DNA of 64,000 bases. It comes from Picochlorum sp. 'celeri' (taxonomy: Eukaryota > Chlorophyta > Trebouxiophyceae). Shown here one piece after another: positions 37,159 to 41,187 of this stretch. The position numbers and the translations under genes are program-made. The first letter of the stretch is position 1. Every line of letters begins with the position of its first letter. The stretch lies in assembly GCA_010909725.1 (NCBI GenBank), contig JAACMV010000018.1:620001-684000 (forward strand). The letters are read 5' to 3'. The notes under the pieces were generated by a model. That model made no database searches. It saw nothing but the letters and a program-made list of their open reading frames with translations, and had not been told where the DNA came from.

Positions 37159-38862
37159 ATGACAGGGCCTCAGTTACAAATTCAAGGAGAGCGTTTCAGT
37201 GGGCAAGACGTCCGCTCACAAAACACGACGGCAGCTTTGGCTGTTGCAAATGTTTTGAAATCTAGTCTTGGTCCAGTGGGTTTGGATAAGGTATGTTTCA
37301 ATAGAGTGGCTGTTCAAAGTAGACTGATTGACGGTGTTTGACGGTGTGGGACGCAGATGCTCGTGGATGACATTGGGGATGTGACAATAACAAATGATGG
37401 TGCTACAATATTGAAGTTATTGGAGGTGGAACATCCTGCGGCGAAGATTTTGGTGGAGCTTGCCGACCTTCAAGATCAGGAAGTGGGTGACGGGACAACG
37501 TCTGTGGTCATCGTAGCTTGTGAGCTGCTCAAGCGCGCGAATGAGCTCGTGAAAGCCAAAATACACCCTACGTCGATCATTAGTGGCTATCGTCTCGCTA
37601 TGCGCGAGGCATGCAAGTATGTGAAGAACACACTGGCACGAGATGTGGGTTCTTTGAATGAAGCAGTGCTTTTAAATGCTGCCAAAACGTCCATGAGCAG
37701 TAAAGTGATCGGGGGGGACTCGGATTATTTCGCATCTCTGGCAGTAGAGGCTGTTACATGTGTCAAGTCTATCAAAGACGATGGCAGAGTCCACTACCCA
37801 GTGGGTGCCATCAATGTGCTGAAAGCCCAGGGGAGGAATATGAGAGAAAGCAGGGTTTTGGACGGATACGCATTGAATTTAGGTCGAGCTGCTCAGGGTA
37901 TGCCAAAACATGTGTCAAATGTGAAAATAGCGTGCCTTGATATGAACTTGCAGAAGGCACGCATGGCAATGGGAGTGCAAGTCTTGGTCACTGACCCTGC
38001 TGAATTAGAAAAGATTCGTCAAAGGGAAAGCGATATAACCAGAGAGAGAATCCAAAAAATACTGGATGCTGGTGCAAATGTGATACTGACAACGAAAGGA
38101 ATAGATGATATGTGCTTGAAGTATTTTGTAGAGGCGGGTGCTATTGCCTGCAGGCGGGTTGCACGTGATGACATGCGAAGAATTGCCCGCATGACCGGCG
38201 CGACAATTGTTTCTACTCTTGCGGATGATGAAGGCAATGAATCATTCGATTCAGAATGCCTAGGATCTGCTGAAGAAGTGTACGAGGATTCCATCTCTGA
38301 CAATGATATGATTCTAATTAGAGCTCACTCGACAGCAGAGGCGAGAGCTGCAACTGTTTTGCTGAGGGGTGCGAACGATTACCTCTTGGATGAGGTTGAT
38401 AGATCCCTTCATGACGCATTCTGTATCGTGAAAAGAGTGTTAGAGAGTGGAAAGGTGGTTCCAGGTGGCGGAGCTGTTGAATGTGCTCTCAGTGTGCATC
38501 TGGAAAGTTATGCAACCACCCTCGAGAGCAGGGAGCAATTGGCCATCGCAGAGTTTGCTGACGCACTGCTTGTCATTCCAAAGACATTGGCTGTAAACGC
38601 TGCTAAAGATGCAATCGAGTTAGTTGCAAAACTTAGAGCATATCATCACGCGGCACAGGAGGCTGGTCAAGGAAAAGAGCACTTGGCTGACTATGGGTTG
38701 GATCTAATCAATGGTGTGGTGAGGAATAATGTTGAAGCAGGAGTGCTAGAACCGATGCTTTCCAAGGTCAAGATGATTCAATTTGCGACAGAGGCAGCAA
38801 TTACAATTTTAAGAATCGACGATCTTATTCGATTGGATGAAGATGAAGAGCCACAGGAATAG
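37159..38862 (+). CDS. CCT1: T-complex protein 1 subunit alpha (CCT1)
   Basis: Alpha subunit of the cytosolic chaperonin TRiC/CCT, which folds actin and tubulin. Exons 37159-37290 and 37357-38862, intron 66 nt (GTATGT), 545 residues. Group II chaperonin signatures: [26 protein letters not shown], the ATP-site [18 protein letters not shown], and the late [10 protein letters not shown]. The segment [20 protein letters not shown] distinguishes the alpha subunit from its paralogues. Length is normal for the family. The stop lies about 30 bp from the stop of the convergent eIF3g-like gene. Confidence 0.96.
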
Positions 38863-39824: not shown

Positions 39825-40116
39825 TTTCTTCCGACTCAATAATGATTGTTATCTTCCCGTTCTTATTATCACTTTTTCGCAGACGACAGGTTCTCGTGGA
39901 GAATTTATGGAAACGAATTCCTCGCGCTTTTCTGAGCGAGCGTACTTGATGTGGTGTTCGCACGATCTCTGCCATTCATTTGGTATCTTCTTTTGATTTT
40001 GGGTGCTTCTTGGAGAGAAACTCTTGTGTGCTAGGAGAAAGAAGCTCCGCCGTCGGAACCCCAACTTTAATATATGTCAAGAAATTCAAATGTGCAATTG
40101 CCCATGGGCTCTAAAC

Positions 40117-40203
40117 AGGGAAAGGCCGGGAGTTCGAATCTCTCCAGAAGCACGAAAAAATTCTATGCTTCTGTAGTTTAGTGGTTATAATATTCCTTTA
40201 GTA
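40117..40203 (+). tRNA. tRNA-Thr(AGT): Circularly permuted tRNA-Thr (anticodon AGT)
   Basis: The 3' half precedes the 5' half. 3' half 40117-40152: A38, GGGAA (39-43), AGGCC variable loop, T-arm GGGAG/TTCGAAT/CTCTC, acceptor CAGAAGC and discriminator A. A 14-nt linker follows (40153-40166). 5' half 40167-40203: acceptor GCTTCTG, TA, a D-arm with GTTTAGTGGTTATAAT, then A26, stem TTCCT and loop TTAGTA ending at A37. Joined across 37/38, the halves form a standard cloverleaf: all 7 acceptor pairs match, and the anticodon loop TTAGTAA is that of tRNA-Thr(AGT). The upstream CTAAA (40111-40115) can pair with TTTAG of the 5' half, as expected for a bulge-helix-bulge-like processing site. A T5 run (40210-40214) would end Pol III transcription. 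No CCA is encoded. Confidence 0.85.
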
Positions 40204-40209
40204 GCACTC

Positions 40210-40214
40210 TTTTT
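40210..40214 (+). terminator. Pol III T-run terminator of the permuted tRNA
   Basis: TTTTT seven bases after the 3' end of the 5' half, in the correct place for RNA polymerase III termination. Confidence 0.6.
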
Positions 40215-40784: not shown

Positions 40785-41187
40785 TCAGCTACGAAACCGT
40801 CGAAGATGCTCCTGTAACTCCCTCATAGAGCTAAAGCCCTGAAGTGTCAAGGGTGAGACAAACACTTGAGACATGTCCTTCACTATTCTCACCTTTGCTA
40901 CTTCGTCCCTACATCTGCATATAGTCATTACAGATGAAACAAAAGCCACAATGAATGGCCCCACAGGCGGTCAAAGTGTCGTACATGGCACAGGTGCTCA
41001 TCTGCGACGCACATGAGAGGCAGAATACATGAGCACAAGGATCCAATAGCCCAATCATATCACTTGGAAAATCGCAATTTGAACAAAAGTATGAAGATTT
41101 CTTGGAATGCTGCCCGCCTGGTTCAGTATTATTGGGGCCTATGGTTTTCTCTAGTTGAGCCGAGAACTGTTCTCTTTCAGCATCCAT
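40785..41187 (-). CDS. HAKAI: HAKAI-like RING-type E3 ubiquitin ligase, compact
   Basis: Exons 40985-41187 and 40785-40914, intron 70 nt (GTACGA...TATGCAG, phase 2), 110 residues. The spliced RING reads CSNCDFPSDMIGLLDPCAHVFCLSC, then STCAICRDEV, giving the C-x2-C, C-x-H, C-x2-C, C-x2-C spacing. HAKAI proteins share the CDxP...GR/LxxPCxHxFCxxCA core and a following strand segment (here VRIVKDMSQVFVSP). In plants HAKAI is a component of the N6-methyladenosine mRNA methyltransferase complex. The zinc-finger end of plant HAKAI appears reduced: the second half has few Cys/His. Divergent from CPSF73. Confidence 0.72.

Follow-up and report, generated by a model that had tools for sequence, protein, structure and literature searches.

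Structure of the locus

The window analysed here, a 64,000-nt stretch of one contig of Picochlorum sp. 'celeri', contains at positions 40117-40203 a tRNA-Thr(AGT) gene in circularly permuted order, the two halves of the tRNA meeting between positions 37 and 38. The gene is flanked on one side by CCT1 (ORF 37357-38862, 100% identical to a Picochlorum sp. BPE23 protein) and on the other by an ORF starting at 41013, whose product we take to resemble a CPSF73-type protein. The features of the locus are as follows.

40066..40076, + strand: TATA-like stretch TTTAATATATG, upstream of GAAATTC, identified by reading the sequence only
40081..40087, + strand: GAAATTC, candidate external promoter element, beginning 36 nt before the 3' half and present at other tRNA genes too
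40111..40114, + strand: CTAA leader strand of the predicted 4-bp central helix of a bulge-helix-bulge (partner 40198-40201), in the register common to most of 17 permuted genes
40115..40117, + strand: predicted 3-nt bulge, with a putative cut at 40116/40117 (AC^A38)
40117..40152, + strand: 3' half of tRNA-Thr(AGT), positions 38-73, from the R2 model and a stem check; the same in the other haplotype
40132..40140, + strand: T-loop/B-box, upstream of the A box, by sequence reading and a B-box pattern match
40153..40166, + strand: intervening sequence of 14 nt with no T run of at least 4; one indel relative to the other haplotype
40167..40203, + strand: 5' half of tRNA-Thr(AGT), positions 1-37, from the R2 model and a stem check
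40174..40185, + strand: D-arm/A-box, downstream of the B box, by sequence reading
40198..40201, + strand: TTAG exon strand (positions 32-35) of the predicted central helix, from the pairing test
40202..40204, + strand: predicted 3-nt bulge, with a putative cut at 40203/40204 (TA^G)
40210..40214, + strand: T5 run, likely RNA polymerase III terminator; T runs lie behind all 17 permuted genes

The 3' half comprises the 3' strand of the anticodon stem, a 5-nt variable loop, the T arm, the 3' acceptor strand and A73, with CCA not encoded. The 5' half holds the 5' acceptor strand, the D arm, the 5' strand of the anticodon stem and the loop bases TTAGTA, in which the anticodon AGT occupies 40200-40202. 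Reordered, the halves form a 73-nt tRNA with a 5-nt variable loop and an anticodon loop TTAGTA/A, pairing in 7/7 positions of the acceptor stem (GCTTCTG/CAGAAGC), 5/5 of the T stem, 5/5 of the anticodon stem and 3/4 of the D stem. An initial annotation of this DNA had described a permuted tRNA-Thr(AGT) with halves at 40117-40152 and 40167-40203 and a 14-nt gap, forming a complete tRNA of 73 nt with seven acceptor pairs, a 5-nt variable loop and a loop split at 37/38. Each of these elements is present, all coordinates and counts agree exactly, CTAAA at 40111-40115 can pair with TTTAG at 40197-40201 as proposed, and the T-run noted behind the gene is the T5 listed above. The annotation had also held that tRNA finders miss such genes, and ARAGORN and Rfam (gathering score) both report zero tRNAs in the window, with no tRNA in ordinary order on either strand.

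A covariance model, R2, was built from nine ordinary tRNAs of the same genome permuted at 37/38 with random spacers, and contains zero real permuted genes. It recovered the expected match in 31/31 sources of one run and 9/9 of another. The window gene scores 64.0 bits (E 5.3e-18) and the runner-up within the window 7.9 bits (E 4.3), and chance is excluded as the source of the match. A second permuted gene in the window was rejected, the best remaining match scoring 9.2 bits with model R1 and 7.9 bits with R2.

Permuted tRNA species in the genome

The genome comprises 27,412,692 bases in 30 contigs, most of which pair as two haplotypes (e.g., C18/C14, C19/C11, C5/C20); the phased diploid assembly of Picochlorum celeri is described as 27.43 Mbp in two sets of 15 scaffolds with 46% G+C (PMC7225527). 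A DNA search with the window locus recovered the C14 allele as well as another permuted gene, Thr(CGT), present on C19 and C11, and a search with the 5' half (up to 3 mismatches) added permuted Thr(TGT) genes on C5 and C20. The remaining members of the set were found by running the models on loci around B-box sequences. In total, 17 permuted tRNA species were identified, each in both haplotypes (34 loci, 26.9-64.0 bits with R2): Thr AGT, CGT and TGT; Ala AGC, CGC and TGC; Arg TCT and CCT; Leu CAG, AAG and TAA; Ser GCT and AGA; Gly GCC; Cys GCA; Tyr GTA; and elongator Met CAT. Every isoacceptor found for Thr (three) and Ala (three) is permuted, as are the sole Cys, Tyr and elongator Met species found.

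All 17 genes have complete acceptor (7/7) and anticodon (5/5) stems, with D stems of 3/4 or 4/4 (one haplotype); the T stem is 5/5 in 31 accepted loci (32 parsed). Their spacers range from 11 to 58 nt. Bases that we presume to be identity elements are kept, including G3:U70 in the three Ala species, U73 in Cys, C1:G72 in Tyr, and the discriminator bases G73 in both Ser and A73 in the three Leu species.

The count of 17 is a lower bound, since the survey covered particular B-box forms and the 37/38 junction only; other junction types would be missed because the search model was built for 37/38. Five B-box patterns occurred at 88, 99, 53, 136 and 50 places over both haplotypes. For four of them approximately one haplotype was inspected, with known tRNAs left out (90 + 24 + 27 loci), and for the fifth, TGTTCGANYCA, 13 of the 100 places among the matches listed were inspected. 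A looser pattern gave 333 places, 100 of which were among the matches listed; places with a purine at position 60 were left out. For Met(CAT) (L157) and Ser(AGA) (L091/L177) the parser chose a wrong register, and the halves were assigned manually, guided by the length of the loop, the anticodon and the discriminator base.

Several candidates were rejected. Two loci on opposite strands of C8 (L063/L065) share a 3'-half-like sequence with a perfect T arm but lack a convincing 5' half whichever order is assumed; with an acceptor stem of 6/7, an anticodon stem of 4/5 (parser) and no sensible A box, they were kept out of the count. Their scores of 27.2 (R1) and 29.4 bits (R2) exceed those of the accepted Ser(AGA) loci (26.7 and 26.9), so that score alone fails to sort the weakest members. 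R1 matches of 12-19 bits (L127, L066, L128, L077, L081, L047, L055, L153, L154 and fragments) were also rejected; four are ordinary intron-bearing tRNAs, and the rest have no convincing 5' half, several lying near contig ends. A Cys tRNA reported by ARAGORN over the permuted Gly gene (L052, L169) had no Rfam match and was discarded. Searched with Rfam, the doubtful loci and the Ala(AGC) locus yielded only two hits, to tmRNA models; both fall on Ala(AGC) and score below their cut-offs.

Ordinary tRNA genes

Ordinary tRNA species number 22 per haplotype, of which 10 are uninterrupted and 12 carry an intron in the anticodon loop. Several intron-bearing anticodons were read by hand where ARAGORN differed (Arg CCG, Arg ACG, Leu CAA, Ser TGA, Pro TGG). 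With 17 permuted and 12 intron-bearing species, 29/39 assigned species need a splicing endonuclease. This inventory lacks Val AAC/CAC, His, Gln TTG and some further species. One further locus, L119:230-298 (C14:382335-382403, minus strand), scores 40 bits to Rfam tRNA and was left out of the 22, as it has no clear anticodon loop. It also shows a weak match to the plastid leader RNA family on the other strand and is possibly an organelle-derived insertion.

Permuted Thr(AGT), Thr(CGT) and Thr(TGT) are all the threonine tRNA genes found in the genome. The 5' half of the window tRNA occurs with up to 3 mismatches at 14 places, six of which are the permuted Thr genes (AGT, CGT and TGT in two haplotypes). 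The other eight comprise six loci with no tRNA by ARAGORN or R2 and two that share the matched string with an inspected partner. A search with the tRNA family model, which scored 63 of 866 candidates and gave 34 matches at E 0.001 and 36 at E 10, returned no ordinary Thr gene. Intact ordinary tRNA-Thr(AGT) genes, several of which, together with a lack of reads across the 37/38 junction, would in the initial annotation's view have pointed to a pseudogene rearrangement, were thus found by neither the 5'-half search nor the family search. Because the inventory is incomplete, an ordinary Thr gene whose 5' half differs strongly may have escaped notice. For alanine, the 3' half matched six places with up to 3 mismatches, all permuted and with zero control matches, and no ordinary gene was found. 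All threonine codons are used in six ORFs of the window (ACT 48, ACC 34, ACA 89, ACG 29). The inosine-34 form of an A34 tRNA-Thr would read ACU, ACC and ACA.

Sequence constraint between haplotypes

Comparison of the two haplotypes over the 14 non-Ala genes, with each indel taken as one change, gave 1/1072 changes in the tRNA halves against 18/384 in the spacers and 67/3080 in the flanks (Fisher p 4e-10 and 6e-8). The window gene and its allele differ at 0/73 positions of the halves, by one indel in the spacer, at 4/120 positions upstream and at 0/100 downstream. The tRNA parts therefore do not mutate as fast as their neighbouring sequence. Constraint is thus evident on the halves and absent from the spacer, as expected of a permuted tRNA gene but not of a pseudogene. 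Constraint on the halves further implies a mature and presumably aminoacylated tRNA.

The three Ala genes, which were left out of these sums, differ in behaviour, with 29/216 changes in the halves, 25/91 in the spacers and 117/660 in the flanks. The haplotypes of Ala TGC (L053/L171), CGC (L068/L168) and AGC (L135/L150) are hyperdivergent, at 13-21% in the flanks and 13% in the halves; flanks of the other permuted genes differ by approximately 2%. Changes fall in the D arms, and the acceptor stems, G3:U70 and the anticodon arms are kept. Judged by contig offsets and a match in the flank, the Ala(AGC) pair is oppositely oriented and separated by approximately 6 kb, and its members are therefore not simple alleles. 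Ectopic gene conversion or an inversion is a possible source of the Ala divergence.

These comparisons bear on whether the locus could be a rearranged pseudogene, i.e., functionless leftover fragments of a broken tandem tRNA array. Such fragments would look alike at first, and one proposed origin of permuted genes themselves is a tandem duplication that then lost its outer halves (PMC3978253). Against this, the two haplotypes hardly differ in the halves but do differ in the spacer, the same order recurs in 17 species with the halves complementary every time, and searches with tRNA halves (up to 3 mismatches) found no ordinary Thr or Ala gene able to take over. We regard a pseudogene as highly improbable.

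Transcription signals

In these genes the elements of the internal promoter are reversed relative to the usual arrangement, with the B box ahead of the A box. A T run of at least 4 occurs within 41 nt downstream of 17/17 permuted genes, compared with 17% of random 41-nt stretches of the window, and in 0/17 spacers (1.9 expected). The spacer is thus free of a terminator and a terminator follows the 5' half, sequence signals that fit a single transcription unit.

It is very unlikely that the tRNA is instead a split one, with halves transcribed separately, joined in trans and lying side by side by accident. Trans-spliced tRNAs are known in archaea, and a bulge-helix-bulge could join halves in trans. 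Yet in each of the 17 genes the two halves are neighbours on one strand and follow the same order, T runs of at least 4 are absent from all 17 spacers, and spacers of 11-58 nt would leave scant room for a separate promoter.

The motif GAAATTC (up to 1 mismatch, 20-75 nt upstream) is found at 10/17 permuted genes and 13/22 ordinary genes, compared with 11% of random stretches of the window, an enrichment that is descriptive only because the motif was picked from the same upstream regions. The window gene carries an exact match. GAAATTC, often with a TATA-like stretch just upstream, is a candidate external Pol III promoter for tRNA genes in Picochlorum. If ordinary and permuted genes shared such a promoter, it would account for how the permuted ones are transcribed, as a review has suggested for algae (PMC3978253).

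A broader reading, which we put forward tentatively and hold to be somewhat less probable than an even chance, is that tRNA transcription has been freed from the order of the A and B boxes, with an external TATA-like stretch plus GAAATTC (mostly 20-45 nt upstream) driving both kinds of gene. Whole isoacceptor families (Thr and Ala, together with the sole Cys, Tyr and elongator Met species seen) could then have drifted into permuted order, so that decoding of at least five amino acids would have come to require the splicing endonuclease, and the same escape would have occurred independently in red and green algae.

A repeat of approximately 111 bp (L150:381-491) lies approximately 60-125 nt upstream of several tRNA genes, with copies in L005, L006, L016, L017, L018, L021, L024, L053, L171 and L223. 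The copies are mostly 96-100% identical (84.5% in L024) and adjoin both ordinary (Asp, Asn, Phe, Lys) and permuted (Ala) genes. The repeat may be a mobile element targeting Pol III genes; if so, the permuted order gives no protection.

Splicing motif and predicted processing

The initial annotation had suggested a relaxed bulge-helix-bulge at the junction. At the window gene the sequence supports this with a CTAA/TTAG helix and 3-nt bulges, and the motif corresponds to the relaxed and not the strict form, as no outer helix is seen. Across the set, a register was tested in which cuts fall after position 37 and before position 38, bulges are 3 nt, and positions 32-35 pair with leader positions -3 to -6. 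The central helix has 56/68 pairs over the 17 genes in this register and 23-34 in seven other registers. When leaders were swapped among genes, 41.4 +/- 3.2 pairs were obtained, and 0/20000 swaps reached 56. Anticodon positions 34-35, which vary among genes, pair in 24/34 cases compared with 14.4 +/- 2.8 (p 3e-4). The helix is 4/4 in 8/17 genes, the window gene included, 3/4 in seven and 2/4 in Cys; Ser(GCT) has 1/4 in the fixed register and 4/4 with a bulge one base longer. The Met(CAT) and Ser(AGA) rows are less independent in this test, because their leaders had already been inspected by eye before the registers were set by hand. Energy folding alone lends no support to the bulge-helix-bulge cloverleaf, evaluated without class II variable-arm pairs and spacer pairs: the minimum-energy fold is lower by 2.7-27.8 kcal/mol in 17/17 precursors.

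The genome encodes homologues of the splicing endonuclease subunits Sen34 and Sen2, with a Sen34-like gene on C7/C24 and a Sen2-like gene on C10/C16 and in five further places. The latter belongs to a repeated segment of 3.2 kb or more, whose four compared copies (L139-L142: C10, C12, C16, C21) are 99.9-100% identical; there are seven places in all, C9, C25 and C26 being the others. These copies could reflect segmental or subtelomeric duplication, or an assembly effect.

We conclude that the window locus is almost certainly a working nuclear tRNA-Thr(AGT) gene, circularly permuted and of type II (junction 37/38). RNA polymerase III would produce one transcript comprising leader, 3' half, spacer, 5' half and trailer. 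The halves would fold to a cloverleaf in which the anticodon loop pairs with the leader as a bulge-helix-bulge, the step to which the pairing results above lend sequence support. The Sen2/Sen34 endonuclease, homologues of which are present, would then cut at 37^ and ^38, and a ligase would join 37 to 38 to form a circular pre-tRNA, by analogy with other algae. RNase P and tRNase Z would excise the 14-nt spacer that links the acceptor strands, with CCA added to the product.

The tRNA could be made in this way and yet owe part of its selective value to the circular intermediate, for example through its stability or as a checkpoint for nuclear export; a review names protection of the circle from degradation and its retention in the nucleus as possible benefits (PMC3978253). 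We consider this unlikely, though less so than the pseudogene or the split tRNA: the spacers differ among genes in sequence and in length (11-58 nt), and also between haplotypes, and a sequence-specific role of the spacer is accordingly not seen.

Comparison with known permuted tRNA genes

Permuted tRNA genes are of a known kind; a 2014 tabulation holds 34 of them in seven organisms, with at most 11 per genome (PMC3978253). The pathway drawn from Cyanidioschyzon merolae and prasinophytes leads through a circular intermediate to CCA addition, with RNase P and tRNase Z probably acting in between (PMC3978253). What is unusual here is their number, together with ordinary Thr and Ala genes not being seen. 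The host groups listed in the initial annotation, prasinophytes among them, are known to carry such genes, but the list was too narrow, as the present host is the trebouxiophyte Picochlorum and the window gene one of at least 17.

C. merolae is one of the nearest known parallels. In that alga 11/43 tRNA genes are permuted, among them Thr(AGT) and Thr(CGT), both of type II (PMC3978253). The two systems share the order of halves, the 37/38 junction for both of these Thr genes, a spacer of tens of bases, a TATA-like stretch upstream, a T run behind the 5' half and a CCA that is not encoded (PMC3978253). They differ in that C. merolae junctions fall at 20/21, 37/38, 50/51 and 59/60 (PMC3978253), whereas here 17/17 lie at 37/38, the junction for which our model was built. 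C. merolae has 11 permuted genes (PMC3978253), compared with 17 species here and ordinary Thr or Ala not found; a splicing endonuclease is needed by 34/43 genes in C. merolae (PMC3978253) and by the 29/39 assigned species given above. As C. merolae is a red alga, an independent origin is likely.

Prasinophytes (Ostreococcus, Micromonas) share the green lineage with Picochlorum, and in these and the chlorarachniophyte nucleomorphs the junction is 37/38 in all but one case (PMC3978253, PMC4494063). Cys(GCA), Leu(TAA), Ser(GCT), Ser(AGA) and Arg(TCT) are permuted both in that set and here (PMC3978253, PMC4494063). Those genomes carry two to six permuted genes each, none of them Thr or Ala in the published table (PMC3978253). 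Auxenochlorella UTEX 250-A resembles Picochlorum in belonging to the same class (Trebouxiophyceae), in its streamlined phased diploid genome and in having permuted tRNA genes; its tRNAscan-SE set was incomplete, and the permuted genes were found afterwards (PMC12633428, PMC12636532). Archaeal split tRNA genes and intron-containing tRNA genes follow the same bulge-helix-bulge splicing logic. Intron-containing genes keep their halves in normal order and split genes have separate transcripts, whereas here the order is reversed in an apparent single unit.

In the SENEW3 genome, tRNAs were annotated by tRNAscan-SE (PMC11092101), and the listings and passages covered by the literature search, those of PMC12301720 and PMC13353863 among them, show no description of permuted tRNA genes in Picochlorum. 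The 17 species are the largest permuted set in the literature found, a comparison that covers the sources above with the exception of the Auxenochlorella number (Supplementary Figure S1 of that work). Finders of the ordinary kind would miss 17/39 assigned species.

With at least 17 permuted genes, making basic parts of the translation machinery in this alga appears to depend on splicing through an RNA circle. The phased diploid genome provides a natural mutation experiment, in which constrained halves can be set against free spacers. Picochlorum, a small and fast-growing laboratory alga, is thus a system in which to ask why tRNA genes permute and how Pol III starts on them.
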